A DNA stretch of 64,000 nt from the NCBI GenBank assembly GCA_028753945.1, contig JAPNXP010000012.1:3472001-3536000 (forward strand), in the 5' to 3' direction. A program made the position numbers and the translations under genes. Positions 8,745 to 54,339 of this stretch are shown here, one piece after another; positions within the stretch are counted from its first letter, which is position 1; each line of letters starts with the position of its first letter. This stretch comes from Hexactinellida sp. DTS-2022. Its lineage: Eukaryota > Porifera > Hexactinellida. Under the pieces are notes generated by a model, which saw nothing but the letters and a program-made list of their open reading frames with translations, searched no databases and was not told where the DNA came from.

Positions 8745-9293
8745 TTAAATCAATGTTTTCTAAGAAAATTTATAAGTGGTGATGAGAAAAAGATTTTGGA
8801 CTACATATTCTGATAAAATTCAAAAAGATTTAATACTTTATCCATTAATTTCCCAATAACTCTGCTGATATTCAACAGACCGGCTAACTGGTTAATAAAA
8901 TCTCTAACCGTTAACCGAATCCAGCCTTGCCTGCAGGAGCAGGTGCGGCAGGTGTGGCCTTGACCGCAACAATATTTTAGAAAGCCGCATCAATATTCGG
9001 GTACCATTTTGAGTCAAACTGAGATTCAATAACTCGACGTCACTTTGCCGCACCAATAATAATTTCCTTGCTATGAGCCTGTATGAGATTGTGCTTAATA
9101 ATGGAAGTAAATTAATGTATCTAGAACAATGGCACACTATCTACGAGAATTGTTGAGATTAGTACCACAGAACAACCGTGAAGCGGTTGTTCTGTGGAAA
9201 TTAGAGGTGTCGAAGCGACCGAGCAAGCGTTGTACGGTAGTATTATATAATATTATAGTTAAAATACTTTGTTGTGTGGGATGCCATATGCCC

Positions 9294-9338
<45 letters not shown>

Positions 9339-9897
9339 CTTAAGACCGATCTTAGTTAAGATCGATCTTAAGACCGAACTTAGAGCTATTCACTAAGAAT
9401 TAAGATCGAACTTAAGATCGATCTTAGTTAAGATCGATCTTAAGACCGAACTTAAAAATAACGTTAAGGTAAATATGATTAGAATACAGCATTATCCTAA
9501 TTAAATACAAAACTAATGTATAATTTAGTTATTGTTTATTTATTATTGATCTAGTAAAAATATATATTTCTATATTTTTATTTTTGAGCGCAATTAATGT
9601 CAAATTATTAGGAACAAAGAAGAAACATTTAAAGTTTATTTGAAGTCAAATATCAATCAAGGTAGATTAAATGTTCGATAGAAGCAGGGTTGCCAATCCA
9701 ATCCAATCGAGAAGATTTCGATTGCCGATTGCTGCATTTTTCATCGATTGGATTGTCGATTTGATTGCTTCGATTTTTTTCGATTGGATTGCAATCGATG
9801 AATTTTCATCGATTTTTTCGATTGTTTGTTTTTTCAATATCTAAATAATGCCAAAATTTAAAATGCTCAATTGCTCGTCAATTTAACCCAATGATAT
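8745..9897 (+). repeat. Left arm of a 1.15-kb inverted repeat
   Basis: Collinear and, in every block compared, identical to the reverse complement of 10030-11182. Starts 'ttaaatcaatgttttc' and ends 'tttaacccaatgatat'. It contains an (ATT)n run at 9294-9338, a CTTAAG/GATCGATC-rich block at 9340-9460, and an 'atcgattggatt' cluster from 9690 that starts 'gcagggttgccaatcc'. Open frames in the arm (8904-9137, 9129-9359) recur unchanged in the other arm but include repeat sequence and show no domain. Confidence 0.9.
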
Positions 9898-10029
9898 ATG
9901 GTTTAAGTTTGAACATATGATGAAACATAACTCTTTTTGATATAATACTGAGGAGTAAACGATCGAAAAAATCGGAGAAACAAACCAAAAAATCGATGAT
10001 ATTTTGGTTTGTTTCTCCGATTTTTTCGA
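9898..10029. other. Spacer of the inverted repeat, with an inner hairpin
   Basis: The 132-bp loop between the arms. Its second half is itself a hairpin: 'cgaaaaaatcggagaaacaa' at about 9963 pairs with 'ttgtttctccgattttttcg' at about 10008-10027, around 'aatcgatgat'. The first half is unique. Confidence 0.8.
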
Positions 10030-10589
10030 TATATCATTGGGTTAAATTGACGAGCAATTGAGCATTTTAAATTTTGGCATTATTTAGATATTGAAAAAAC
10101 AAACAATCGAAAAAATCGATGAAAATTCATCGATTGCAATCCAATCGAAAAAAATCGAAGCAATCAAATCGACAATCCAATCGATGAAAAATGCAGCAAT
10201 CGGCAATCGAAATCTTCTCGATTGGATTGGATTGGCAACCCTGCTTCTATCGAACATTTAATCTACCTTGATTGATATTTGACTTCAAATAAACTTTAAA
10301 TGTTTCTTCTTTGTTCCTAATAATTTGACATTAATTGCGCTCAAAAATAAAAATATAGAAATATATATTTTTACTAGATCAATAATAAATAAACAATAAC
10401 TAAATTATACATTAGTTTTGTATTTAATTAGGATAATGCTGTATTCTAATCATATTTACCTTAACGTTATTTTTAAGTTCGGTCTTAAGATCGATCTTAA
10501 CTAAGATCGATCTTAAGTTCGATCTTAATTCTTAGTGAATAGCTCTAAGTTCGGTCTTAAGATCGATCTTAACTAAGATCGGTCTTAAG

Positions 10590-10634
<45 letters not shown>

Positions 10635-11182
10635 GGGCATATGGCATCCCACACAACAAAGTATTTTAACTATAATATTATATAATACTACCGTACAACG
10701 CTTGCTCGGTCGCTTCGACACCTCTAATTTCCACAGAACAACCGCTTCACGGTTGTTCTGTGGTACTAATCTCAACAATTCTCGTAGATAGTGTGCCATT
10801 GTTCTAGATACATTAATTTACTTCCATTATTAAGCACAATCTCATACAGGCTCATAGCAAGGAAATTATTATTGGTGCGGCAAAGTGACGTCGAGTTATT
10901 GAATCTCAGTTTGACTCAAAATGGTACCCGAATATTGATGCGGCTTTCTAAAATATTGTTGCGGTCAAGGCCACACCTGCCGCACCTGCTCCTGCAGGCA
11001 AGGCTGGATTCGGTTAACGGTTAGAGATTTTATTAACCAGTTAGCCGGTCTGTTGAATATCAGCAGAGTTATTGGGAAATTAATGGATAAAGTATTAAAT
11101 CTTTTTGAATTTTATCAGAATATGTAGTCCAAAATCTTTTTCTCATCACCACTTATAAATTTTCTTAGAAAACATTGATTTA
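10030..11182 (-). repeat. Right arm of the 1.15-kb inverted repeat
   Basis: Mirror of 8745-9897, including the microsatellite (about 10589-10634) and the AACCGGTT fragment near 11000-11070. The repeat stops sharply at 'cattgatttaa'; beyond that the two flanks are unrelated. Confidence 0.9.
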
Positions 11183-11339
11183 ATAATAGCCTCTAAGCAA
11201 TTCGTCGAACCTCTCCATAAACCTAGCTATGATAGCTTCGATACTGTAATAAGTTGTTAGAGATGCTTTGAACAATCGGAGACAAACATAAGCGAAAATC
11301 TGTAATCGGAAAATTGTCATTTACTCTTTTTGGAAAAAA

Positions 11340-11796: not shown

Positions 11797-12706
11797 CAGA
11801 CATGGGGTCAAGCCCTTTCAAAAGGGCTTAAGTCCAAGCCCATCCCTAATTAGAAGGGCTTAAGCCCAAGCCCTTTTTCTAAGCCCTTTTTGAAAAAGGG
11901 CTTAAGTCCAAGCTCAAGCCCTTAATAAAGGGCTTAAGTCCGGACTTAAGTCTTTTACACTAATTATTTAGAAATCCATACAATATTTTATTGAATAAGT
12001 ATCTTGAAAAGGGCTTGAAGCTCATCTATAAAGGGCTTAAGTCCAAGCCCTTGTGGAATGTGGAGTTGTTGATTAAGAAACTGGAGAGAACAGACGGTCA
12101 GCTCAGAAGGCTGCAAACAGAGAGGGGACAGCTGGAGCAGATACAGGTAAGAAATAACCATTCGCTCTTACCAGATAGAGCTAGCGATATTAGGCAAAGA
12201 CCTAAATTCAGATTGGTTTATTTGGTAACTCAAATGCAAGTTGGATGCTAGTTTATTGATACATGTAAAAATATTAGTACATGTATATTTATTTACAGTA
12301 GAACCTCGTTAGTGCGAAATTCTGGTTAATACGAACACTATTTCAGTCCATTTCAAAGCTTTTCAATACAAATTACACCGGTTAACACGAATTTCGGTTA
12401 TATGCATAGGGCAATGGCACTTTTTCTAAGCCCTTTTTGAAAAAGGGCTTAAGTCCAAGCTCAAGCCCTTAATAAAGGGCTTAAGTCCGGACTTAAGTCT
12501 TTTACACTAATTATTTAGAAATCCATACAATATTTTATTGAATAAGTATCTTGAAAAGGGCTTGAAGCTCATCTATAAAGGGCTTAAGTCCAAGCCCGGA
12601 CTTAAGCCCTTTTATTAAAGGAGGACTTAAGTCCGGATTTAAGCCCTCTCAAAAATGGGCTTAAGTCCAAAGGGCTTAAGCCCTTTGGGGCTTGGCCCCA
12701 TGCCTG
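11797..12706 (+). mobile_element. hAT-like element of AAGGGCTTAAG repeats carrying a host gene fragment
   Basis: Ends 'cagacatggggtcaagccc' and, mirrored, 'gggcttggccccatgcctg'. The interior is dominated by AAGGGCTTAAGTCC repeats in both orientations. A block of about 175 bp (11876-12050) is repeated directly at 12421-12596. Between these copies lies a piece of CFAP157 (12051-12406) with a ~15-bp unrelated tail. The right flank 'gtttctat' resembles 'gtttctaa' at 11781-11788, but about 8 bases separate the latter from the left end, so the target duplication is not clean. No transposase is present. Confidence 0.72.
12051..12406 (+). pseudogene. Copied exon 3/intron 3 fragment of CFAP157
   Basis: This segment is essentially identical to the reverse complement of 15508-15855: the last ~92 bases of CFAP157 exon 3 (residues NVELLIKK..LEQIQ), the GT splice donor (ATACAG|GTAAGA at about 12148), and the first ~250 bases of intron 3, including the half Tigger/pogo-like element with 'gtagaacctcgttagtgcg'. 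No other exon is present, so no CFAP157 product can be made. It sits inside the hAT-like element 11797-12706 between two direct copies of that element's own sequence. The near-identity indicates a recent event. The joined open frame 11991-12251 begins in transposon sequence and is fortuitous unless transcribed. Confidence 0.93.
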
Positions 12707-14738: not shown

Positions 14739-16832
14739 TCAAATAGGCGGGAGGATAGGAAGAGTGGACTGAGACACAAATCCTAGACTGCCGGGCTTAT
14801 ACTGAGCGCTCTCAGCACTAGAGAGGGGCACAGAAAACAGAGCTGGAGCAACCCTGCTCTCAGGTTGCTGCTCAGACGCATCCTTCTTCCTGGGGTGCAG
14901 CTTTGCGGTTTCCAAAATCTCCAACAAACTGACCATGAAGTCCTCTCTCTGAGAGAAGGAGTAGGCCGGGTCGGGGCTGGGGCGGAGAGCCGAGTCCACC
15001 AGGGTAGCAGCTCGAGATATAACCCTCACAAGATGATCGTTCTGAGCTGAAGCAGCGTATCTCTCATCATAGGCGGTCTCCAGTTGCTTACGGGAAGCGG
15101 CTATTAGCTGATAGCCGTTCTGGGCATCTGACGCAAGTTCCGAATTAATCATCTCCAGATCTGTGTAATCCATCTGGGAATAAAGGACAATTAATATAAT
15201 CGATAAACTAGTATTTGTTCGATCAGTTTAAGATTTGAGTATCAGTCAATAGCGCCAGCTTCGACCCTGCTTGTAACCTGGTACGTAGAGCTTAAGAGCT
15301 AGGAATGACCCATTGGCGCAATAAGATTTAAATAAACTAATTTTTATTGAAAATCGAATAAATTAAAAAATATGTCTAGAATGCTATGGTCTAACTCTAA
15401 AGTAATCGAGTTTATGTTTGTCGTTCTAGATTAAATTAAAGCTAGTCACAAATTTCCACAACAGATTATTCAAAAGAAATGAACACCAGGGGATCAGCAA
15501 AATTCGTCCGAAATTCGTGTTAACCGGTGTAATTTGTATTGAAAAGCTTTGAAATGGACTGAAATAGTGTTCGTATTAACCAGAATTTCGCACTAACGAG
15601 GTTCTACTGTAAATAAATATACATGTACTAATATTTTTACATGTATCAATAAACTAGCATCCAACTTGCATTTGAGTTACCAAATAAACCAATCTGAATT
15701 TAGGTCTTTGCCTAATATCGCTAGCTCTATCTGGTAAGAGCGAATGGTTATTTCTTACCTGTATCTGCTCCAGCTGTCCCCTCTCTGTTTGCAGCCTTCT
15801 GAGCTGACCGTCTGTTCTCTCCAGTTTCTTAATCAACAACTCCACATTCCGCAGCTGACTGACATTCTTACGCGTCACCTCGTGCAGGCTATTCTCCAGT
15901 CCCGACTTGTCAAGCCCCATTCTGTGCAGTCTCTGTTTCAAGGCGTCATTATGTGCTAGTAACTCTTCGTTCTTCGCGGATATCCTCACCAGTTGGTTAG
16001 AGATTGAGATATTCTCCCTGATTGCTCGCTTTGTAGTCTCAGACATTTGCTTCTCACTTGCTCTCTTGAAATCCTGAGAAGCTTCTTTGACTCGCTCCAC
16101 CATCTCTTTCTTCAGTCGCTCTTGATTTATTACTTTCTTCTTTTCTACGTCATACAGGCTGCATACACAAATCGATATAATCATATGAAATGAGGCATGA
16201 GCAATGGTTTATGACTCTACCTCTCTTCAAACTCTTTCTTCTGCAGCTCCACTGTATCCTCCAGCTGCAGCAGCCGATCTTCCATCCGCTGCTTGTTTTC
16301 TCGGAACTCCTCCATCAGTTCGTTCTGCCTCTGCACAGTCCGCAGTTCCGCGAGGAGGAGCTCTTTCTCCTCCTGACTCTTTTGGTTGACAGAGATGAGC
16401 TGCTGTTCCGCCTCCCTCTTCTCCTCTTCCAGTCTCTGGCTCAGGTCCTGCACCTGCTCAGTCCCTACCATCACCTACACACATTGTAAGTGTACCCAAT
16501 CCTAGCTAACCACGGGCAGCATGGATATTCCGGCTGCAATGGCTGATCACCTGTGAGGTGAGTCTCTCATTCTCGTCACTGATAGTAGAGATGATCCCCT
16601 TCATGTCCTGCTCGCTGCTCTGCACGCTCTCGCGCAGGTCCTCATTCCGTTGCTTGAGCAGGTCGCACTGTCTCCGGTACCGGCCCAGCCTCTCCTCCAG
16701 GTCCTGTATCTGCAGGAGGTAGAACTCCCTGCTGTTCTGCGGCACCGCCTCCGACTCCTTGGGGCCCGCGTCCCCCGGAGAGGTGTCGGCCGCCGCTTTT
16801 TCCTTCTTCCCTCCCTTCTTCTTCTTAGGCAT
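14739..16832 (-). CDS. CFAP157: CFAP157, cilia- and flagella-associated coiled-coil protein
   Basis: Four exons read from right to left: 16832-16551, 16474-16221, 16158-15759 and 15173-14739, with GT..AG junctions at every intron. They join in phase to 456 codons plus stop (the human protein is about 520). The start is a lysine-rich MPKKKKGGKKEKAA, followed by REFYLLQIQDLEERLGRYRR, then long coiled coil. Exon 3 has the family block SETTKRAIREN. The C-terminus PGSLGFVSQSTLPILPP fits the conserved PGDLG tail. In other animals CFAP157 acts at basal bodies and is needed for sperm flagellum assembly; that role is known of the family, not shown here. Intron 3 (15174-15758) holds half of a Tigger/pogo-like MITE, and its 5' part plus the exon 3 end was copied to 12.05-12.41 kb. 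Assignment rests on collinear motifs recalled from the family. Confidence 0.88.
15508..15609. mobile_element. Half of a Tigger/pogo-like MITE in CFAP157 intron 3
   Basis: Ends 'cgaggttctactg' followed by TA at 15610-15611, matching the right terminus of the complete 56995-57179 element. The other terminus is missing. The left boundary coincides with the end of the copied block at 12051-12406, so position 15508 marks the duplication edge; the element itself may start slightly earlier. Confidence 0.65.
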
Positions 16833-16993
16833 CGCTGGCGAGCTAGCTGCTCAGTTAGACTCATTAATTCACAGGCCAGATAGAATCAGTCATTATAGTA
16901 CGTAGTATACAGCATAAATAATAACCAAAATATACAGAAGAAATCCTTTTTAGACAGCAATAAATACAAATGCACACAAAGCTGATGTTGCTA

Positions 16994-23885: not shown

Positions 23886-24984
23886 TTTTTTTAGCCATGT
23901 CATCATCACTATGAAGGTGTTAAATTATTTCAGAAAGGTGTTTCAAAAGGCAACGACCCTTAGTGAGTTGGAAGTCTCCATTTAGCTCACTTTATTTGAG
24001 AGATATTCAAGTTTCAGTAGAATGTAATCTGTGATGATTCAGCATTTTTTAAGTGCGTGTTGGGTGTTTACCCAACTCCAACCAATTCATGCGAATTATT
24101 TAATTCACAAAATTGGAAAAATACATTTTTTTTACGATGTCATCATCACCTTAAGGTGTCAAGATCCACTTGTATAGGTGGTACGTGCCATAAGGACCAA
24201 TTGATAAATTTAAAGTTTCTTTCTATCTTGTATCATTTCTGAGATTAATGAAATTTAGATAAGTAGTATAAATATTTCATTAATCTATTAATAATTTAAC
24301 ACCAATAGTATGTACATCAAAATAAATTAAGTTCAATTATTTGCAATAATTATTAATTTAAATTGAATTTCATTATCATATTTGAATTAGCGCACTCGAT
24401 AACCCCAATAATCTATTTGGAACCGTCTCTATACGTTAAACACAGAGCGAATTAATTAGAATTAAATATGTCATGTATCCATTGTGCAAGAATATTCTAA
24501 GCAGAAATAAATATAATCGAATAATCTGTCGTTGTTATGGAATGTAGAATCTTAGTTTTCAATTGGAAAATAGAAGCCTACTCGATCTCACAAGTTGAAT
24601 CAATATAATAATCACAAGTTGAAACAATAGAATTAGATTTAACACTTTCAATTGATCTGAAGTGTTAGTAAACAAAGAAATTCAACCCCCATTTATGGCA
24701 TGAATTACCAATTCTAAAAATTTAAATTTTTTTCCATCAGACGCAGAATTTTATCGTGAATCCAATAGTGAAAAAAATTGTAGCTTTAATATAACATTTT
24801 TTGAGTTAAGAACCAGGCAAATTTTGAAAGGTGTTAAAAATTTGTAAAAAATTTGTTAATAAAAAATCTTAACCCCAGGTGCACATCTGTAACCCATGAG
24901 ACACCCATCCTAAAAATTTGGGCTTCTAGTTGACGAAACTCTGTTGTGTGTAGAGGATACGGACTAATAATAATAATAATAATA

Positions 24985-25101
24985 AATCCAAAATTGCAGC
25001 CTGTGCCGACGCATGTTCCTTTTGTGGCACTATATTTTGGTGGTGGTTTATTTATAGTGCCTCCAAAGGATCATGCTGTCGTCACAGCTGCAATTTTGGA
25101 T
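24985..25101. repeat. Hairpin repeat, copy 6
   Basis: Plus orientation, directly after (TAA)n. Followed by the MKSYQ-type body. Confidence 0.87.
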
Positions 25102-26405
25102 TTTTTCGCCATCTTATGAACGCCTCATAGTGTTTAGACTCATTTAACAATTTGTATGGTACAAAGGAACGATTGTTGATTTTAAATTATTTCTATCTTG
25201 AACCACCTTGAGTTTAATGCCATTCATTCATTATGTATAGATAATAATTTATATAAATAGTTAATTATTTAGCAATGTTATCCACTGTGATTTGAGTTAA
25301 GTAAACAAATTCCCAATATAATTCACTTTGCTTTAATCCATTGAATATTAATATACTGTTAAAAATTGGAAATAAGCATACTTGTTTACTTAGAATGACA
25401 AAAGGATTAAGTTTATATTTCCATTATAAATGCGTTATAATTATCCCCCCCTATCACTCTAATACAATTCGGACACCAAACACGCACACAGACGAATAGT
25501 CATTTAATAGATATTCCATTTCATTAATCCATTGTTTGTATATCTGTCATCGTTTTAAAATTGAAATCAGCATACTCGCTTACTTTGAATGATATATGGG
25601 GATTAAGTTTATATTTCCATTATAAATGCGTTATAAACCCCCCTTACACTCTAATACATTTCGGGCACCAAGCATACACATAGACAAATATTTATACAAA
25701 TAGATATTCCATCTCATTAATCCATTGTTTGAATATCAGAATCGTTCTGAAATTGAATAACTGTTGAATTAAATTGAATTTTCTTATAGGAGAAAACTTT
25801 AATACAACTATTGTATTAGAAATCGATTTATATAGTAGCAGCTATTGAATCAAATTGAATTATTCATATACACTAGAATACTTTATTGTAACTATGATAT
25901 CAGAAATTGATTTGTATAGTAATAGCTATTGAATGTAAATTAACTATTCATATATTCTAGAATTCTTTATTGTAATTATGATATCAACAATAACTTGAAT
26001 CGAAATAACACTGAATCTAATTGAATTATTCATAAATATAGTTATTCATTGAACCACGAAATAATTGCATAATTGAATATTAATGAATTTATGATTTTAG
26101 AAAGTTAAGGGTGAATTGTGGCAACTTTGAGCCTAATTATTGGGAAAATGAGGACAGATTAAAAAGATCGTGAAGAGCTATCAGTTGCAAAATACTTTTC
26201 TGATACTAATGATTCTAAATTTTTTCTTGTTATTGCATTTATTTTCTTATGGGACAAAAAAAGCTAAAAGTCCCGTTAACAATTTGTCCAAATCGAAATT
26301 AATAAATTGTGACCACAGGAGCACATCTGTAACCCATGAGACACCTATGCTGAAAATTTCAGTTCTTAGTTAATAAAACTCTGTTCTGTAGAGAGGCTAC
26401 GGACC

Positions 26406-26435
<30 letters not shown>

Positions 26436-26436
<1 letters not shown>

Positions 26437-26551
26437 TCCAAAATTGCAGCTGTGCCGACGCATGTTCCTTTGGTGGCACTATATTTTGGTGGTGGTCTAG
26501 TGATAGTGCCTCCAATGGAACATGCTGTCGACACAGGCTGCAATTTTGTAT
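26436..26551. repeat. Hairpin repeat, copy 7
   Basis: Plus orientation after (TAA)n; loop 'ttttggtggtggtctagtg'. Confidence 0.87.
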
Positions 26552-27737
26552 TTTTTTCGCCATGCCATGAACGTCACATGGTGTTTACACCCATTTATTA
26601 ATTTGTTACGGGACAAAGGAACGTTTGATAACTTTTTTGCTTCTTCTATCTTTATAAGTTATAATAAGTTATATAAGTAATTAAACAATCTTGAGTTTAA
26701 GTTTATATTTCATTATAATGCGTTTAAGACCCCCCTATTACTCTAATACAATTCGGGCACCAAACACGTACACATACGAATAGTCATTTAATAGATATTC
26801 CATTTCATTAATCCATTGTTTGCATATCAGTCATCGTTTTAAAATTGAAATCAGCATACGGTACTTGTTTACTTAGAATGACATATGGATTAAGTTTATA
26901 TTCCATTATTAATGCGTTATAAATCCCCCTTTGCACTCTAATACATTTCGGGCACCAAGCACACACATAGACAAATATTTATATAAATAGATATTCCATC
27001 TCATTAATCCATTGTTTGAATATCAGAAATCGTTCTGAAATTGAATAACTGTTGAGTGAAATTGAATTTTAATATAGGAAAATACTTTAATACAACTATT
27101 TATTAGAAATCGATTTATATAGTAGCAGCTATTGAATCAAATTGAATTATTCATATAATAGAATACCTTATTGTAACTATGATATCAGAAATCGATTTGT
27201 ATAGTTATAGCTATTGAATGTAAATTAATTATTCATATATACTAGAATTGTTTATTGTAGTTATCGAAATAACACTGAATCTATTGAATTATTCATAAAT
27301 AGTAGTTCTTCATCGAAACCACCAAATATTTGCATAATTGAATATTAATGAATTTACGTTTTTAGAAAGTTAAGGGTGAATTGTGGCAACTTTGAGCCTA
27401 ATTATTAGGAAAATGAGGACAGATTTAAAAAATCGTGAAGAGCTATCAGTTGCAAAATACTTTTTTGATACTAATGATTCTAAAAATTTTCTTGTTATTG
27501 CATTTATTTTCTTATGGGACAAAAAAAGCTAAAAGTCCCGTTAACAATTTTTCAAAATCGAAATTAATAAATCGTGACCCCAGGTGCACATCTGTAACCC
27601 ATGAGACACCTATCCTGAAAATTTCAGTTCTTAGTTAATTAAACTCTGTTCTGTGGAGAGGCTACGGACTAATAATATACCAAAACACTAAGACCATTAC
27701 TGGGCCACTATACTATAGTATAGTCGGCACAGTAAAA

Positions 27738-27853
27738 ATCCCTAATTGCAGCTGTGCCGACGCATGTTCCTTTGGTGGCACTATATTTTGGTGGTGGTCT
27801 ATTGATAGTGCCTCCAATGGAACATGCTGTCGACACAGCCTGCAATTTAGGAT
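27738..27853. repeat. Hairpin repeat, copy 8
   Basis: Plus orientation, immediately after the palindromic linker. Both outer arms carry a T not seen in other copies (left 'ccctaattgcag', right 'ctgcaatttagg'), consistent with exchange between arms. Confidence 0.87.
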
Positions 27854-28428
27854 TTTTTTTGCCATGTCATGAACGTCACATGGTGGTTACACCCATTTAT
27901 CAATTTGTTACGGGACAAAGGAACGTTTGATAAATTTCATGCTTCTTTCTATCTTAAACCATCTTGAGTTTAAGTTTATATTTCCATTTTAAATGCGTTT
28001 TAGACCCCCTATCACTCTAATACAATTCGGGCACCAAACAAGCACACAAACGAATAACATAAACTAGAAATTACATCTCAATAATCCATTGTTTATATAT
28101 CAGTATCGTTCTGAAATTGAAATCAGCATACTTTGTTTACTTAGAATGACATATGGGATTAAGTTTATATTTCCATTATAAATGCGTTATAAACCCCCCT
28201 TACACTCTAATACATTTCGGGCACCAAGCACACACATAGAAAAATATTTATACAAATAGATATTCCATCTCATTAATCCATTGTTTGAATATCAGAAATC
28301 GTTCTGAAATTGAATAACTGTTGAGTGAAATTGAATTTTCATATAGGAGAAAACTTTAATACAATTATTGTATTAGAAATTGATTTATATAGTAGCAGCT
28401 ATTGAATCAAATTGAATTATTACTGTGC

Positions 28429-28477
28429 CGACTATACTATAGTATAGTGGCCCAGTATTGGTCTTAGTGCCTTGGAT

Positions 28478-28513
<36 letters not shown>
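28429..28513 (-). repeat. Inversion point of the array: palindromic linker plus poly-T
   Basis: The plus-orientation body stops at about 28428 and is joined to the reversed linker 'tactgtgccgactatacta..' followed by 35 consecutive T (28479-28513). Downstream units are all in minus orientation until 32890. Confidence 0.8.
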
Positions 28514-30299
28514 CTCCGTGTCGCCTCCCCAGGCTAAACCATAAGTGCTAGAGCTATGAGATTTTCAGGATAGGTGTCTGGTTGTTGATTAATGTGCACT
28601 TCGTGGCCTGATTTTTCAATTTCGACTTGGAAAATCTTTTAACGGGACTTTTAGCTTTTTTTGTCCCACAAGAAAATAAATGCAATAACAAAAAATTTTT
28701 TTGAATCATTAGTATCAGAAAAGTATTTTGCAACTGATAGCTCTTCACGATTTTTTTAATCCGTCCTCATTTTCCTGAGAATTAGGCTCAAAGTTGCCAC
28801 AATTGACCCTTAACTTTCTAAAATCGTAAATTCATTAATATTCAATTATGCAATTATTTCGTGGTTTCGATGAATAACTACTATTTAATATTTATGAATA
28901 ATTCAATTAGATTCAGTGTTATTTCGATTCAAGTTATTACTGTGCCGACTATACTATAGTATAGTGGCCCAGTATTGGTCTTAGTGCCTTGGATTTTTTT
29001 TGTTTTCTCCGTGTCGCCTCCCCAGGCTAAACCATAAGTGCTAGAGCTCTGAGATTTTCAGAATAGGTGTCTGGTTGTTGATTAATGTGCACTTCGTGGC
29101 CTGATTTTTCAATTTCGACTTGTGAAATTTTTTAACGGGACTTTTAGCTTTTTTTGTCCCACAAGAAAATAAATGCAATAACAAAAAAAATTTTAGAATC
29201 ATTAGTATCAGAAAAGTATTTTGCAACTGATAGCTCTTCACGATCTTTTTAATCCGTCCTCATTTTCCTGAGAATTAGGCTCAAAGTTGCCACAATTGAC
29301 CCTTAACTTTCTAAAATCGTAAATTCATTAATATTCAATTATGCAATTATTTCGTGGTTTCGATGAATAACTATTATTTAATATTTATGAATAATTCAAT
29401 TAGATTCAGTGTTATTTCGATTCAAGTTATTGTTGATATTATAATCACAATAAAGAATTCTAGTATATATGAATAACTAATTTACATTCAATAGCTATTA
29501 CTATACAAATCTATTTCTGATATCATAGTTACAATAATTTATTCTATTTATATGAATAATTCAATTTGATTCATTAGTATATAAATCGATTTCTAATACA
29601 ATAGTTGTATTAAAGTTTTCTCCTATATGAAAATTCAATTTCACTCAACAGTTATTCAATTTCAGAACGATTTCTGATATTCAAACAATGGATTAATGAG
29701 ATGGGATATCTATTTGTATAAATATTTGTCTATTTGTGTGCTTGGTGCCCGAAATGTATTAGAGTGTAAGGGGGGGGGGTTTATAAAGCATTTACGTATA
29801 ATGGAAATATAAACTTAATCCCATATGTCATTCAAAGTAAGCGAGTATGCTGATTTCAATTTTAAAACGATGACTGATATACAAACAATGGATTAATGAA
29901 ATGGAATATCTATTAAATGACTATTCGTCTGTGTGCGTGTTTGGTGGTCGAATTGTATTAGAGTGATAGGGGGTTATAATAGGAATATAAACTAGATCCC
30001 TTTTGTCATTCTAAGTAAACAAGTATGCTGATTTCCAATTTTAAACAGTATATTAATATTCAATGGATTAAAGCAAATTAAATTAAATTGGAAATTTGTT
30101 TACTTAACTCAACTCAACTCACATTGCTAAAATAATTAACTATTTATATCATTTATTATCTATACATAATGAATGAATGGCATTAAACCCAAGATGGTTC
30201 AAGATAGAAATAATTTAAAATCAACAATGGTTCCTTTGTCCCGTACAACTTGTTAAATGAGACTAAACACTATGAGGTGTTCATGACATGGCGAAAAAA

Positions 30300-30413
30300 A
30301 TCCAAAATTGCAGCTGTGCCACAAGCGTGTTCCTTTGGAGGCACTATCAATAAACCACCACCAAAATATAGTGCCACAAAAGGAACATGCGTCGGCACAG
30401 CTGCAATTTTGGA
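30300..30413. repeat. Hairpin repeat, copy 9
   Basis: Minus orientation. One arm has 'gtgccacaagcgtg' rather than the usual 'gtgccgacagcatg', a change shared with copy 11 but not copy 10. Confidence 0.87.
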
Positions 30414-31786
30414 TTTTTTGTTACTGTGCCGACTATACTATAGTATAGTGGCCCAGTATTGGTCTTAGTGCTTTGGTTTGTTTTTTGTTTTTTTTCTCCG
30501 TGTCGCCTCCCCAGGCTAAACCATAAGTGCTAGAGCTCTGAGATTTTCAGGATAGGTGTCTGGTTGTTGATTAATGTGCACTTCGTGGCCTGATTTTTCA
30601 ATTTCGACTTGTGAAAATTTTTAACGGGACTTTTAGCTTTTTTTGTCCCACAAGAAAATAAATGCAATAACAAAAATTTTTTTAGAATCATTAGTATCAG
30701 AAAAGTATTTTGCAACTGATAGCTCTTCACGATCTTTTTAATCCGTCCTCATTTTCCTGAGAATTAGGCTCAAAGTTGCCACAATTGACCCTTAACTTTC
30801 TAAAATCGTAAATTCATTAATATTCAATTATGCAATTATTTCGTGGTTTCGATGAAGATCTACTATTTATGAATAATTCAATTAAATTCAGTGTTATTTC
30901 GATTCAAGTTATTGTTGATATAATAATCACAATAAAGAATTCTAGTATATATGAATAACTAATTTACATTCAATAGCTATTACTAAACAAATCTATTTCT
31001 GATATCATAGTTACAATAATTTATTCTATTCATATGAATAATTCAATTTGATTCATTAGTATATAAATCGATTTCTAATACAATAGTTGTATTAAAGTTT
31101 TCTCCTATATGAAAATTCAATTTCACTCAACAGTTATTCAATTTCAGAACGATTTCTGATATTCAAACAATGGATTAATGAGATGGGATATCTATTTGTA
31201 TAAATATTTGTCTATTTGTGTGCTTGGTGCCCGAAATGTATTAGAGTGTAAGGGGGGGGGGGTTTATAAAGTATTTACGTATAATGGAAATATAAACTTA
31301 ATCCCATATGTCATTCAAAGTAAGCGAGTATGCTGATTTCAATTTTAAAACGATGACTGATATACAAACAATGGATTAATGAAATGGAATATCTATTAAA
31401 TGACTATTCGTCTGTGTGCGTATTTGGTGGTCGAATTGTATTAGAGTGATAGGGGGTTATAATAGGAATATAAACTAGATCCCTTTTGTCATTCTAAGTA
31501 AACAAGTATGCTGATTTCCAATTTTAAACAGTATATTAATATTCAATGGATTAAAGCAAATAAAATTAAATTGGAAATTTGTTTACTTAACTTAACTCAA
31601 CTCAACTCACATTGCTAAAATAATTAACTATTTATATCATTTATTATCTATACATAATGAATGAATGACATTAAACCCAAGATGGTTCAAGATAGAAATA
31701 ATTTAAATCAACAATGGTTCCTTTGTCCCGTACAACTTGTTAAATGAGACTAAACACTATGAGGCGTTCATGACATGGCGAAAAAA

Positions 31787-31901
31787 ATCCAAAATTGCAG
31801 CTGTGCCGACAGCGTGTTCCTTTGGAGGCACTATCAATAAACCACCACCAAAATATAGTGCCACAAAAGGAACATGCGTCGGCACAGCTGCAATTTTGGA
31901 T
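31787..31901. repeat. Hairpin repeat, copy 10
   Basis: Minus orientation. The following unit lacks the first ~490 bases (linker and MKSYQ-type part) and restarts at 'gatattataatcacaataaa'. Confidence 0.87.
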
Positions 31902-32774
31902 TTTTTTTGATATTATAATCACAATAAAGAATTCTAGTATATATGAATAACTAATTTACATTCAATAGCTATTACTATACAAATCTATTTCTGATATCAT
32001 AGTTACAATAATTTATTCTATTTATATGAATAATTCAATTTGATTCATTAGTATATAAATCGATTTCTAATACAATAGTTGTATTAAAGTTTTCTCCTAT
32101 ATGAAAATTCAATTTCACTCAACAGTTATTCAATTTCAGAACGATTTCTGATATTCAAACAATGGATTAATGAGATGGGATATCTATTTGTATAAATATT
32201 TGTCTATTTGTGTGCTTGGTGCCCGAAATGTATTAGAGTGTAAGGGGGGGGGGTTTATAAAGCATTTACGTATAATGGAAATATAAACTTAATCCCATAT
32301 GTCATTCAAAGTAAGCGAGTATGCTGATTTCAATTTTAAAACGATGACTGATATACAAACAATGGATTAATGAATTGGTATATCTATTAAATGACTATTC
32401 GTCTGTGTGCGTGTTTGGTGCCCGAAATTGTATTAGAGTGATAGGGGGTTATAATAGGAATATAAACTAGATCCCTTTTGTCATTCTAAGTAAACAAGTA
32501 TGCTGATTTCCAATTTTAAACAGTATATTAATATTCAATGGATTAAAGCAAATTAAATTAAATTGGAAATTTGTTTACTTAACTCAACTCAACTCACATT
32601 GCTAAAATAATTAACTATTTATATCATTTATTATCATCTCATAATGAATGAATGGCATTAAACCCAAGATGGTTCAAGATAGAAATAATTTAAAATCAAC
32701 AATGGTTCCTTTGTCCCGTACAACTTGTTAAATGAGACTAAACACTATGAGGTGTTCATGACATGGCGAAAAAA

Positions 32775-32889
32775 ATCCAAAATTGCAGCTGTGCCACAAG
32801 CGTGTTCCTTTGGAGGCACTATCAATAAACCACCACCAAAATATAGTGCCACAAAAGGAACATGCGTCGGCACAGCTGCAATTTTGGAT
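32775..32889. repeat. Hairpin repeat, copy 11
   Basis: Last minus-orientation hairpin; nearly identical to copy 9, showing recent unit duplication. A plus-orientation body fragment follows directly. Confidence 0.87.
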
Positions 32890-33449
32890 TTTTTCATTTA
32901 CAATATAATACTTTATTGTAAGTAACTAAGATATCAGAAATTGATTTGTAAAGTAATAGCTATTGAATGTAAATTAATTATTCATATATACTAGAATTCT
33001 TTATTGTAAATATGATATCAGCAATAACTTAAATCGAAATAACACTGAATCTAATTGAATTATTCATAAATAGTAGATCTTCATCGAAACCACGAAATAA
33101 TTGCATAATTGAATATTAATGAATTTACGATTTTAGAAAGTTAAGGGTTAATTGTGGCAACTTTGAGCCTAATTATCAGGAAAATGAGGACGAATTAAAA
33201 AAATCGTGAAGAGCTATTAGCTCCAAAATACATTTCTGAAGTTAATGATTCAAAAATTTTGTTTATTATTGCTTTTATTTTCCTATGGGACAAAAAAAGC
33301 TAAAAGTCCCGTTAAAAATTTTCCCAAGTCGAAATTAATAAATCGTGACCCCAGGTGCACATCTGTAACCCATGAGACACATATCCTGAAAATTTGGGCT
33401 CTTAGTTAGTAAAACTCTGGTCAGTAGAGAGGCTACGGACTAATAATAT

Positions 33450-47991: not shown

Positions 47992-49120
47992 ACAGTAGCC
48001 CCGGGGCCCGTGGGTCTAGGAGGGCCCGTAAAAATTCCTAAACAAAGTTATTGGTTTAAGAATGTAAGTATAATGTTACCGCCAAATGCTGCCTTCAGAT
48101 AATAAAATTGAATGACATATAGTTAACTTAAACTTTAATTATAAAGAGATAAGGAAATCGTGTAAAATGAACATTTGGGTTTGGGAAAGGTTCCAGAGGG
48201 GCTTGTCAAAGGAAATTGATCTCCGAAAAAACTGGTCCTAAGACCATTTTCCCTGGAATTTTGTTCCAGGATCAATTTTTTGGGCCCAATTTCCAGTGAC
48301 AGGCTTATTCATAAAAATTTTTGGGTCCCAATATGGCGAAAAATCGCCTAGGTTACTATTCTAGTAAATACGGTAACTAAATAAACACAAACCTCAGAGG
48401 GACCAATTTTCCACAGAAGGACCAGATTTCCATGAAAATTTTGGTCCCCCCGGACCAATTTCCCAAGGGGGCCAAATTTTCCGTGACAGGCTCACCATTA
48501 TTGTTTGCCCTGGGGCCCGAAAAACCTCTCGGCGGCCCTGATTAGCATGAATGACAAGTCAAATTTAGCACTTTATACTTTGATATCTACGTCAGAGCCG
48601 GTTCGAGAAACAAATCTGAGGGGTTGGTCAGAGACTATTTCAGGGGGGCTGCATCTCAAATTCCTAACTAAAATTCAACATACTAAAATCTTATTAATCT
48701 CAAATAATCAAATCTCAAATATGTAAATACAATAATGTATAGTGAGGGAGTTAGATCTATCTGTAATTATACTAAAGGTATATAATTGGTGACATATGCG
48801 AAACTGAACTTTCAGGTCTGGGTGGGCACGGATCTTGTGATGCGGATGTTACCAACTAAACACGATACAATAACTACATCAGGGCCGGCGGAAGAGGGGC
48901 GGTTGGGGCGGCCCAGGCCCCCCCACTTTTTCTATTATTTTTTTGGTACTCTGAAATTTCTCGGGCGTGTTTTTGACTCTGTAATCCTCACAATTATCAT
49001 CATAATACAAGGCCGCCCCACCTCTCACGAGCTTCCGCCGGCCCTGAACTACATAACTAGCTAAGGATAAGTAGCTTGTCTATTATCTCAGTTTAGAGAT
49101 CTCCATAACAGGAGTATTAC
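47992..49120 (+). repeat. Left arm of a large inverted repeat
   Basis: Starts 'acagtagccccggggccc' and ends 'ccataacaggagtattac'. The mirror is 50096-51387. Differences between arms: a 167-bp MITE present only here (48880-49046); an extra ~200-bp block here (about 48290-48490) bounded by similar 'gtgacaggct' motifs; a 510-bp MITE only in the other arm. A 73-codon frame at 48505-48726 recurs in the other arm but has no domain. Confidence 0.88.
48880..49046. mobile_element. hAT-type MITE (167 bp)
   Basis: Termini 'cagggccggcggaag' and mirrored 'cttccgccggccctg', with the 8-bp repeat 'aactacat' at 48872-48879 and 49047-49054. The opposite arm at about 50145-50170 lacks it, giving a near empty-site comparison. 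Confidence 0.9.
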
Positions 49121-50095: not shown

Positions 50096-51387
50096 TGTTA
50101 TGGAGATCTCTAAAACTGAGATATTAGACAAGCTACTTATCCTTAGCTAGTTATGTAGTAATTGTAGTTATTGTATCGTGTTTAGTTGGTAACATCCGCA
50201 TCACAAGATCCGTGCCCACCCAGACCTGAAAGTTCAGTTTCGCATATGTCACCAATTATATACCTTTAGTATAATTACAGATAGATCTAACTCCCTCACT
50301 ATACATTATTGTATTTACATATTTGAGATTTGATTATTTGAGATTAATAAGATTTTAGTATGTTGAATTTTAGTTAGGAATTTGAGATGCAGCCCCCCTG
50401 AAATAGTCTCTGACCAACCCCTCAGATTTGTTTCTCGAACCGGCTCTGACGTAGATATCAAAGTATAAAGTGCTAAATTTGACTTGTCATTCATGCTAAT
50501 CAGGGCCGCCGAGAGGTTTTTCGGGGCCCAGGGCAAACAATAATGGTGAGCCTGTCACGGAAAATTTGGTCCCAAAAAATTGATCCTGGAACAAAATTCC
50601 AGGGAAAATGGTCTTATGACCAGTTTTTTCGGAGATCAATTTCCATTGACAAGCCCCTCTGGAACCATTCCCAAACCCAAACCCAAATGTTCATTTTACA
50701 CGATTTCCTTATCTCTTTATAATTAAAGTTTAAGTTAACTATATATCATTCAATTTTATTATCTGAAGGCAGCATTTGGCGGTAACATTATACTTACATT
50801 CTTAAACCAGGCCTGGGGTAATAGTAATATGTAATAGTAATTGTATTAGTAACGATTACATTTTAGAAGTAATAGTAATAAGTAATAGTGTTTCAAATAG
50901 GATGTAATAGTAATAGTAATTGTATTGTAATAGGAATTATCTATTACAATTCTACAACTTCGGACTGGCTTATTTGATTTTTCGTGAAGAAATAGGAAGT
51001 TGTTAAAATAATTTTAAGGCAAGATGATTATCGATTTGAATTTGTCATTATATTGAAATTAGTTGTTTTATTGAAATTAGTTGTTTTCTTAGGTTAGATA
51101 ATATGTTTTTGTTTGTGTGGGATAATCAATTAAAATAATAAACTTCAGACATTCTGAATCATAGCAGAGTCTTAGTAAATGTCTAGTAATTTGTAATAGT
51201 AATAGTAATATATTACATATTCTAATAATGTAATTGTAATAGTAATAGTAATAGGAAGAAATATAAGTAATAGTAATAGTAATATATTACATTTTAGAGT
51301 AATTGACCCCAGGCCTGTCTTAAACAAATAACTTTGTTTAGGAATTTTTACGGGCCCTCCTAGACCCACGGGCCCCGGGGCTACTGT
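50096..51387 (-). repeat. Right arm of the large inverted repeat
   Basis: Mirror of 47992-49120, from 'gtaatactcctgttatgg' to 'gggccccggggctactgt'. Single-base and short differences are visible (for example 'gtttgggaaaggttcc' against 'ggaaccattcccaaac'), so the arms have begun to diverge, unlike the arms at 8.7-11.2 kb. Confidence 0.88.
50808..51317. mobile_element. hAT-type element (510 bp) with TAATAG repeats
   Basis: Termini 'caggcctggggtaatagta' and mirrored 'ttgaccccaggcctg', with the perfect 8-bp repeat 'tcttaaac' at 50800-50807 and 51318-51325. The interior ends are (TAATAG)n. The left arm at about 48045-48065 is uninterrupted there ('ggtttaagaatg'), which shows the pre-insertion site. 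Confidence 0.94.
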
Positions 51388-51621
51388 CCCCCCTGCCCCC
51401 CTCCCCCCCCCCCCTCTTGGCGGCCCTGATGCTAATTCTTATATACGTATTGAAGTGGGCTAGTTCATAACTGCCAACCGCACAGGGATTCCCTGTACAG
51501 TACAGGAATTTAAGGCACAACTTGGTTTATATATATTATCTATTCAAGGGTTTAGGGAATCCCTGTACAGTATATATCTAATTGCTTTACCTTCCAAAGT
51601 AATAATTTGGATATGTCTTTC

Positions 51622-54170
51622 CATAGCCTACTATACATAAGGCCTCACAGTAAAATATGATATCTGGACCAGGGATGCGGTCGCCGCCAGGAAACGAAAT
51701 TGCAATTTTTTATCAAATTTAGTGACATTCCGCTTGAAAACAGATATTCCGGTGACTAGCAACTGTAATAAAGTAATACGTATACTCTCATTATACCATT
51801 AATCTTATTACTTTGTGAGTTTGAATAACATACACAATACAAAACTACTAGAAAACCTCTATTTAGGTAGATATAGTTACTTCACATAAGACAACTAACT
51901 CGTATCTAAATAATCAGGAATCGAACTTTTTCAATTTCCGCTTTTCTAATCCCTTTAAAGTAAGGCTCGAATTGTAATTCTTGACAAGATTTGCAATTAG
52001 ACAATTTGCTCACTCCGAACGAGACTTGATAGAATGGTTGAACCTTTCACATTACAAGAAGGACAAGTAGTTCTCCAACCTTCAAAACCACTATCAAGAC
52101 CAGTTAGGGAGCCAAAAGCAAGTGTTACTAAAATCTTTCTAGTTTGACCTTCTATCAACAGGGACATAAGTTCACTATTACTTTGGATTATAGTTAGAAT
52201 CTTCCAAACAATAATTAACGATTCCAATGCAAGCTCTGAAGGATACTTTAGACCACCACGATCAGAAAGCTGCAGTAGTTGGTACCGGAATTCGAAGGAT
52301 TCCTGTTAGGAACACAAGGATGAGGTACACATGTTTCAAGCTTACCAACAGGAGAGAATAGTTTGAATAACTTGACGTTAAGAGGATAGTTATCTGTTGA
52401 GATTACATCCACACATAAACCACAAGTTTCGATATCTTTAATACAAGCGAGTATGATGGGGAATATCTCCTCAGCGGAAAGAGAGGCACATGGTAATAGA
52501 CGAACTATAGTAGACCATTTTTTCTGGAGACTTGATACCATAATCTTTATTGGATCTTCTGGGCTTAGACTAGAGCCATATATCTTGCCTCCTTTATATG
52601 TGACATCAGATTTTACGTGAATTTCGTCCATTTGCATAACGATATGTTTCTCAGCTTCAGTGAAAGAATTTGTCGCTTGCTTGAGGAAAGGAAAGAATTC
52701 ACACTCAAGTCCGAATGAAGAATACAACTTCTCCAAAGTGTTGACATGAGGCAGAGATAGACAAGCCATTTGTTGAAGATACTTATAACATGCTGGTGAA
52801 ATTAAATGTGCTTTAAGTGCCATAAGCTGTGTGAGGATGTTGTACCTCCGCCTGTTTTTGGGTACAATACTGTTTTCAAGCTGACATTGGATGAAATGAA
52901 GCCTGGATATTTCGGGGGAATCAGTTAGTTAATAAGTTATCTCTAATTCACCATTAGATGAAAGTACTTTGTTAATGAGTAGTTGGATATTGTCCTTCGC
53001 TAAAGATAAAGTCTCATTAACGGTCTTTGAAACAGATTCAGTGGACAGAACAGGACGAGGGGATATAGAAATCTCACAGAGAATTGATTCAAGGTGTCGT
53101 ATATCGCTGATTGAGCAAATTGGAATTGGTAAAATTTCTCCATTACGATAAGCTCTAACTGACAAATCGAAGGACACTAATATATGGGTGTTGACAATGA
53201 TATTGTGTTCTGTCAGTAGAGGTAGCATATAAATTAGACTATGATCATCTGGGTACCATAAAGACCATGTTTTAGGTAGGGAAATCAAAGGTAACTTAGC
53301 TTGGGTATCCTGGAAACAATTGATCTGATATTTATCTTTCTCTTCGCTCTCAGATGCCAGGCTAAGTGTTAATGCTTCATTGAACATTTCCTCATCTTTT
53401 GATGTAGGTGACACACATCTGCGCTATTTGGAGCTAATAGATTGAGAACAGATTGAAGGGTGTCCTGGTAGAAAAACTGGAACGGCACCATCTTTTAGCT
53501 TTGGGTTGACTCTTGGAATTTCACGATAAGTACCATCTCCGTTTGGAACTTTGTGAGTATACTCAACATCCTCCTGGCGAAAATGATTTACACTCACGTA
53601 AACCCCCTTGAATGATAGTAAATCGTCTCTCCGAAGAACCTGAAGCCATCTGTGTCTTAGGTCATCTGGTTTCGTAGGTAGTTTAAAAACTGGGACACGG
53701 TGATCGTCGTTGTAGTTGATTTTGCATCCGAAAATGGCACAACTGTTGGGCATCGTTAGAAAAAAACTAATAAATTAATGGTAGTAGCATAAATCAAATT
53801 ATAAGGTTAATTTTTAATAGGGAAATGGGCTCTGTAGGGGTATTGTACTAATGAGAATGAGATAAATAAATAACAAGATGGATTATTTAGCTCTAGAGCG
53901 TAATAAAAGTATAAATTTGCTATGTATGTTATATACCATAAACCACTTATTTATATTATGGGTGAATAACAACACAAAATTCTAAAATTAGCTTTGTGGT
54001 TAATATGCATATTTTTCGATATATATCGACTGCTAGTCACCGGAATATCTGTTTTCAAGCGGAATGTCACTAAATTTGATAAAAAATTGCAATTTCGTTT
54101 CCCGGCGGCGACCGCATCCCTGGTCCAGATTTCATATTTTACTGTGAGGCCTTATGTATAGTAGGCTATG
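51622..54170 (-). mobile_element. P-superfamily (THAP) DNA transposon, defective
   Basis: Terminal inverted repeats of about 140 bp (51622-51761 and 54031-54170) starting 'catagcctactatacataag' and nearly identical. The direct repeat 'gtctttcc' at 51615-51622 and 54171-54178 fits the 8-bp duplications of P elements; it overlaps the first inverted-repeat base, so the exact edge is ambiguous by one. The interior carries a broken THAP transposase on the minus strand. Ends CA..TG as in P elements. Confidence 0.9.
51997..53753 (-). pseudogene. THAP/P-element transposase, degenerate
   Basis: One frame runs from 53753 to 52248 with two in-frame stops (TAG at about 53424-53426, TAA at 52929-52931). 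It starts with a THAP zinc finger: MPNSCAIFGC holds the first cysteine pair and AVPVFLP is the THAP signature, but the C-x2-H position reads SVNH, so the third ligand is Ser. After the second stop come a helix-rich part (NRRRYNILTQLMALKAHL) and the RNase-H-like core with likely first Asp in QMDEIHVKSD and second in ISTDNYPLN. At HPCVPNRN (about 52300) the GTP-binding insert and third acidic residue are missing. A shifted frame resumes at SDRGGLKYPSELALE and ends with a TTCPSC motif near 52040. Internal deletion plus frameshift. Confidence 0.85.
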
Positions 54171-54339
54171 GTCTTTCCTATTTCTCTGAATAATAATCCA
54201 CGGGACGAGCGAGCGCAGCGAGCGAGAAATCTTTGGGTGGTGTACACGGATTTTTGGCCAATGACAGGGGAAAATTTGAGCCCTATGAGGGATATGACTC
54301 AAATAGGTTGGCAGGTATGCTAGTTATGCTATTCAACTT

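Follow-up and report, generated by a model that had tools for sequence, protein, structure and literature searches.

We conclude that the focal element at 11797-12706 (forward strand) of the window, i.e. the whole 64,000-bp stretch analyzed (G000:C4:3472001-3536000), is best read as a hAT-like, non-autonomous transposon (MITE) that was already at the site, broke or had a fork stall within its hairpin-rich interior, and would then have been mended by serial copying repair of an SDSA- or MMBIR-like kind. We give this reading a probability of roughly 80%. The evidence for it comes from an exact inverted copy of part of a neighboring gene, a short second piece matching another contig, and a direct duplication of the element's own sequence on both sides of this foreign DNA.

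Anatomy of the focal element

The genome comprises 112.4 Mb in 18 contigs, and the window contains 0 N. The focal element is 910 bp long, versus the ∼360-390 bp usual for its relatives, which are contiguous, and it has the ends CAGACATGGGG...CCCCATGCCTG. Read along the forward strand, it is composed of a single-copy 5' part, B (11797-11872), a first copy of a 178-bp stretch, A (11873-12050), four bases, TTGT, at the left junction to which no template could be assigned (12051-12054), a long filler 1 (12055-12397), a 25-bp filler 2 (12397-12421), a second copy of A (12420-12597), and a single-copy 3' part, C (12598-12706). The right edge of the first A coincides with the 3' boundary of a predicted 6-nt hairpin loop. 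Altogether, the extra DNA amounts to 547 bp, and 369 bp separate the two A copies. As assessed by direct comparison, the two copies are identical at 178/178 positions, far beyond chance. Direct copies of ∼175 bp of the transposon flanking the filler had been proposed by a sequence-only reading of this DNA, and we confirm them with an exact length of 178 bp.

The neighboring gene as donor of filler 1

Filler 1 is the exact reverse complement of 15508-15850, with 343/343 bases identical and an E-value of 9.2e-177 for the donor in a genome search. The inverted identity of ∼350 bp noticed earlier is therefore real, but its edges lie at 12055-12397 and 15508-15850 rather than at 12051-12406 and 15508-15855, differences of no more than ∼10 bases. 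The filler consists of the end of an exon (12055-12146), a splice donor (CAG/GTAAGA at 12146/12147) followed by ∼250 bp of intron, and part of a MITE that we take, from its ends, to be mariner-like; the original description of this content is borne out. Its source lies on the minus strand, in a neighboring gene (14739-16850, minus strand) that we outlined as four coding pieces from open frames, with approximate edges, and the distance from donor to focal copy is 3,110 bp. This gene is presumably CFAP157, the name that the sequence-only reading had also used; searches of Pfam and PDB gave no naming hit and returned only a weak DUF1310 match, below cut-off, and a weak TRIM45 match. An Rfam scan of the window found nothing at gathering scores.

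The direction of copying can be read from the edges of the shared sequence. In the gene, the MITE runs on past 15508, whereas in the focal element it ends, as seen in the alignment, at the copied edge. Because of this, and because the exon is continuous with the upstream reading frame, it is the gene that supplied filler 1. The converse, in which a chimeric element or a repeat carrying the fragment moved in and the gene was the recipient, could draw on the last ∼100 bp of filler 1, which are repetitive MITE sequence with relatives 83-92% identical (best 40 of 1681 candidates scored). However, the remaining 231 bp (12055-12285) were found at 2/2 genome places, namely the donor and the focal copy, which, together with the continuous exon and the extended MITE, makes such an origin extremely improbable. 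The sequence-only reading had itself named occurrence of the fragment at many loci as the sign of a repeat, and no such spread was seen for the non-MITE part; the same count rules out that the filler is a multi-copy Pack element. The unspliced copy argues against retroposition, but the word "excludes" was too strong, since an RNA template, if unspliced or antisense, is conceivable in principle.

A second donor and the junctions

At first sight, the 22 bases that link the inverted copy to the second A seem arbitrary, yet in a search allowing up to 3 mismatches they have one other genome place, on contig C2; the reversed control pattern had 0 genome matches. With the shared junction bases included, 12397-12421 is identical to C2:6255859-6255883 at 25/25 bases; base-composition and third-order models put the expected number of exact 25-base chance matches at ∼2e-7. 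The 301 bp around the C2 site are single-copy (1/1 places), and the match is apparently intronic, lying directly behind a splice donor when read by eye. We also considered whether the 22 bases are the remainder of the donor's MITE, and rejected this, as six other aligned MITE copies read differently there. Judging from these matches, two donors contributed to the chimeric filler, the second of them on another contig. The C2 donor is new relative to the sequence-only reading, whose local donor holds for the 343 bp of filler 1 and not for filler 2.

Adjacent pieces overlap by one base (G) between filler 1 and filler 2 and by two bases (CT) between filler 2 and the second A, and no overlap is assignable at the left junction. 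Microhomology at the junctions is thus weak, and TTGT has no known template; both points count against our preferred reading.

The element family and the timing of the capture

When searched genome-wide, the two parts of the element have many relatives (best 40 of 219 candidates for the left part and best 40 of 196 for the right part). Over its full length, the joined 363-bp element can be aligned with loci on many contigs, in which the sequence preceding the filler directly meets the sequence following the second A. Ends of the family read CAGACATGGGGTCAAGCCC...GGGCTTGGCCCCATGCCTG. hAT elements are characterized by 8-bp target site duplications and CAG...CTG terminal inverted repeats. Flanks matching at 7/8 bases or better (best of offsets 0-5) were found in 16/30 distinct full-length copies compared with 5/870 mismatched flank pairs, which leads us to call the family hAT-like MITEs, with the flank match falling below 7/8 in 14/30 of the copies. 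No clean 8-bp target duplication flanks the focal copy (best 4/8), which shows GTTTCTAA 8 bases further out on the left versus GTTTCTAT on the right; the account of its own insertion is therefore incomplete. In addition, hAT dimerization domains are abundant in the genome (best 150 of 638 candidates scored), some of them in open frames of 600-800 aa. From these sequences, hAT transposase activity in the genome is plausible, the domains being not linked to the focal MITE family.

The 521 bases compared across the two duplications contain 0 differences, which by the rule of three corresponds to a divergence of at most ∼0.6%. Both A copies carry four substitutions (positions 187, 205, 206, and 252 of the joined element) that are absent from all 30 full-length copies, the nearest of which differs at 8/349 sites. 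As these four changes are common to both A copies, the capture seems to be younger than the insertion of the element, an order that is supported but not proven, since the shared changes could also stem from relatives beyond the 30 or reflect gene conversion of one A copy by the other. A post-insertion capture fits the transposition-independent gap filling described in Tan 2021 (PMC8277862).

Survey of other family copies

Pattern counts gave 169 left (5') ends and 125 right (3') ends, 100 of each of which were examined further. These listed ends form 59 pairs, of which 55 are 154-395 bp long, the focal copy is 910 bp, and the others are 951, 1689, and 2714 bp. Unpaired were 41 of the listed 5' ends and 42 of the 3' ends; sequence was examined for 40/41 and 7/42 of these, respectively, and for some others. 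In the fragments of unpaired ends that were compared, there was no directly repeated element stretch of >12 bp around foreign DNA, and no second capture was seen among the listed ends surveyed. The focal copy is thus no evidence of gene capture as a habit of the element family. Flank duplication as a family feature was rejected, as among the paired listed ends and fetched fragments it is confined to the focal copy; the 30 full-length copies used for timing were chosen as uninterrupted and carry no weight on this question.

Several candidates for further captures were inspected and set aside. The 951- and 2714-bp pairs (C14:1733265 and C1:3171911) are nested insertions with ends CAGGGTTG...CAACCCTG and apparent 8-bp target duplications. 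The 1689-bp pair (C14:1732527) is a pairing artefact, because its right end belongs also to the 951-bp copy. The 301-bp insert at C11:8282376 is multi-copy (best 40 of 369 candidates scored), and the copy at C17:709898 looks like a length variant of a sub-family. Three further arrangements came to our attention. At C1:11312239-11312840, ∼120 bp of foreign sequence replace ∼35 bp of a family copy, with no duplicated flank seen. Three hAT-like MITE copies lie in one orientation within ∼3 kb at C14:1732300-1735900, one of them with a nested insertion. Finally, two loci, C3:1602600-1603700 and C3:1629200-1630300, each hold family left ends that are inverted relative to one another and point toward each other ∼140 bp apart, in a foldback-like manner.

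Proposed repair path

What can be read directly is how the pieces are ordered, where else they match, and that the matches are exact; from this, we infer a break, an order of copying, and possible sources of the 178-bp overlap. In brief, the path would be as follows: (i) a break or stalled fork strikes the hairpin-rich interior of the resident hAT-like MITE, (ii) the left 3' end stops at the edge of a hairpin loop, at element position 254, (iii) this end is extended by 343 nt on the opposite strand of the neighboring gene, (iv) copying moves to the intron-like stretch of contig C2 for ∼24 nt, and (v) the product is rejoined to the element at position 77, 178 bp upstream of the point of departure. 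Leaving the element at 254 and re-entering it 178 bp upstream would place the same 178-bp stretch on both sides of the filler. The overlap itself may come from filled-in staggered nicks, from overlapping gap-repair tracts (e.g. after excision), or from copying that returned to the sister chromatid. In one ViennaRNA fold, the uninterrupted single-stranded element is predicted to form long hairpins, and position 254 falls at the 3' end of a 6-nt loop within a 14-bp hairpin. The claim that template-switching repair took place inside a transposon copy gains support from the exact inverted copy, the flank duplication, the two donors, and the junctions. The proximity of the first donor fits the cis bias reported in Tan 2021 (PMC8277862) and Pace 2009 (PMC2671141).

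Two more specific versions of this repair path differ in what would have started it or in how the copying would have run. In the first, which is a sub-case of the preferred reading with a different trigger, hAT transposase excises the element, both flanks copy the sister inward over tracts that overlap by 178 bp, and filler is added before end joining, as an abortive gap repair. Since hAT domains are common in the genome, transposase activity is plausible and excision is possible as a trigger, and two overlapping inward tracts would yield the flank duplication directly. However, animal breakpoints favor breaks within the element over excision, according to Tan 2021 (PMC8277862), and after abortive gap repair larger deletions would be expected, whereas here no element sequence is missing. 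We regard excision as a somewhat unlikely trigger. The second version, also a sub-case, is FoSTeS/MMBIR, in which a fork stalls at the palindromic element and the nascent strand visits two templates before re-entering 178 bp upstream. Such a single continuous copying path would account for the order of the pieces, the inversion, the second donor, and the back-step, and it agrees with the strong predicted folding of the uninterrupted element, with the left break at a hairpin loop edge, and with a perfect 1,155-bp inverted duplication that ends 614 bp upstream. Microhomology is nevertheless minimal, and no sequence feature distinguishes this course from SDSA plus end joining, so that we hold it as a tentative option, credible but short of an even chance.

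Comparison with known systems

Tan 2021 (PMC8277862) describes 370 animal Pack-TIRs, which are mostly single-copy, with 160/281 unique ones lying ≤15 kb from their donor. The gap filling described there resembles the focal case, which is likewise a single-copy TIR element with foreign DNA, a nearby donor, a capture that appears to postdate insertion, and short or no microhomology. When set against the definition given there, the focal element has an internal stretch whose length falls within 100-5,000 bp, and the two flanking parts belong to one TIR element and preserve its terminal 10 bp. It has a unique best parent within the limits of ≥90% identity and 80-120% length (343/343; 369 bp internal versus 343 bp parental), and it retains an intron (splice donor plus ∼250 bp of intron) and is no intronless retrocopy. 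By contrast, the parent is expected there to have transposon-free 100-bp flanks, and our donor ends in a MITE that continues beyond 15508; with a donor holding a MITE, the case would probably be discarded by that screen. Two further differences from those Pack-TIRs are that the focal copy duplicates 178 bp of the element where they leave a small gap, and that part of its filler comes from a second donor, located on another contig.

Pace 2009 (PMC2671141) describes 1,136 interrupted transposons, 824/1,136 of which lie within 5 kb of their donor, and also 20 chimeras of two donors, in 15 of which another chromosome supplied the second piece. These repair-mediated duplications share with the focal case an interrupted transposon, a donor <5 kb away, filler bases, and two-donor chimeras, and the focal junctions, with 1 and 2 common bases and a 4-base insert, are of the same kind. 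The focal parts, 254 and 287 of 363 bp, match the description there of an element interrupted by ≥50 bp with neither part exceeding 95% of the consensus. For the non-MITE part of the filler, the insert occurs at one other place, with a donor >50 bp off and proximal (<5 kb), whereas the MITE tail has many relatives. In that screen, however, the two parts must abut within 30 bp on the consensus, and the 178-bp overlap of the focal parts means that it would be missed. Small tandem duplications at staggered breaks, as presented in Schimmel 2021 (PMC8355091), are alike in that fill-in of overhangs duplicates the stretch between two nicks; they differ in being end-joined tandem duplications at Cas9-made breaks, whereas the focal A copies are 369 bp apart. 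MMBIR templated insertions share serial template switches and inverted pieces.

Because it departs from the 30-bp abutting rule of Pace and from the transposon-free donor flanks of Tan, we classify the focal case as a variant of Pack-TIRs and repair-mediated duplications rather than a member. It works like both; two-donor chimeras have already been described, and it is the anatomy that is unusual. Such captures may be undercounted, since a 178-bp overlap escapes the screen of Pace by design and a donor MITE probably fails that of Tan. The focal copy is a nearly unmutated record of a broken transposon gaining an exon end and a splice donor, which is a raw step behind exon shuffling. Taken alone, it amounts to one mutation, and nothing points to a function.

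Neighboring repeats

The 1,155-bp inverted repeat upstream of the focal element is perfect and has a 129-bp spacer (8745-9899 and 10029-11183). Its spacer is transposon sequence. A related transposon on C3 extends leftward beyond 8745; the right arm thus corresponds to a truncated and inverted copy of part of the interior of the left copy, and the repeat is, on this comparison, another recent local inverted duplication. The capture and this duplication, both free of differences, might together record one recent complex replication event with its center in this hairpin-rich region, resembling germline chromoanasynthesis at a 7-kb scale, an idea that we put forward as speculative and improbable.

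Two perfect inverted structures so close together also bear on whether the focal copy is a chimera of assembly, amplification, or library preparation, as whole-genome amplification is known to produce inverted local chimeras. Yet the consensus would have to contain pieces from several templates and then come back to the same element, the genome is assembled in 18 contigs with 0 N in the window, and in 97 distinct loci (210 kb; the ten loci of the focal and donor regions were left out) there were 0 local duplications of ≥80 bp at ≥99% identity, these loci being mostly 0.6-4 kb, a size at which widely spaced duplications would escape. We accordingly consider an artefact to be distinctly unlikely.

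The repeat list for the window holds 48 pairs. These include two inverted 411-bp copies that are 99.5% identical and lie ∼1.3 kb apart (48468-48878 and 50163-50573), and another inverted pair, of 141 bp at 98.6% identity (51621-51761 and 54031-54171). Long direct and inverted repeats with 90-99% identity are clustered at 24977-32898, which is probably a transposon array.
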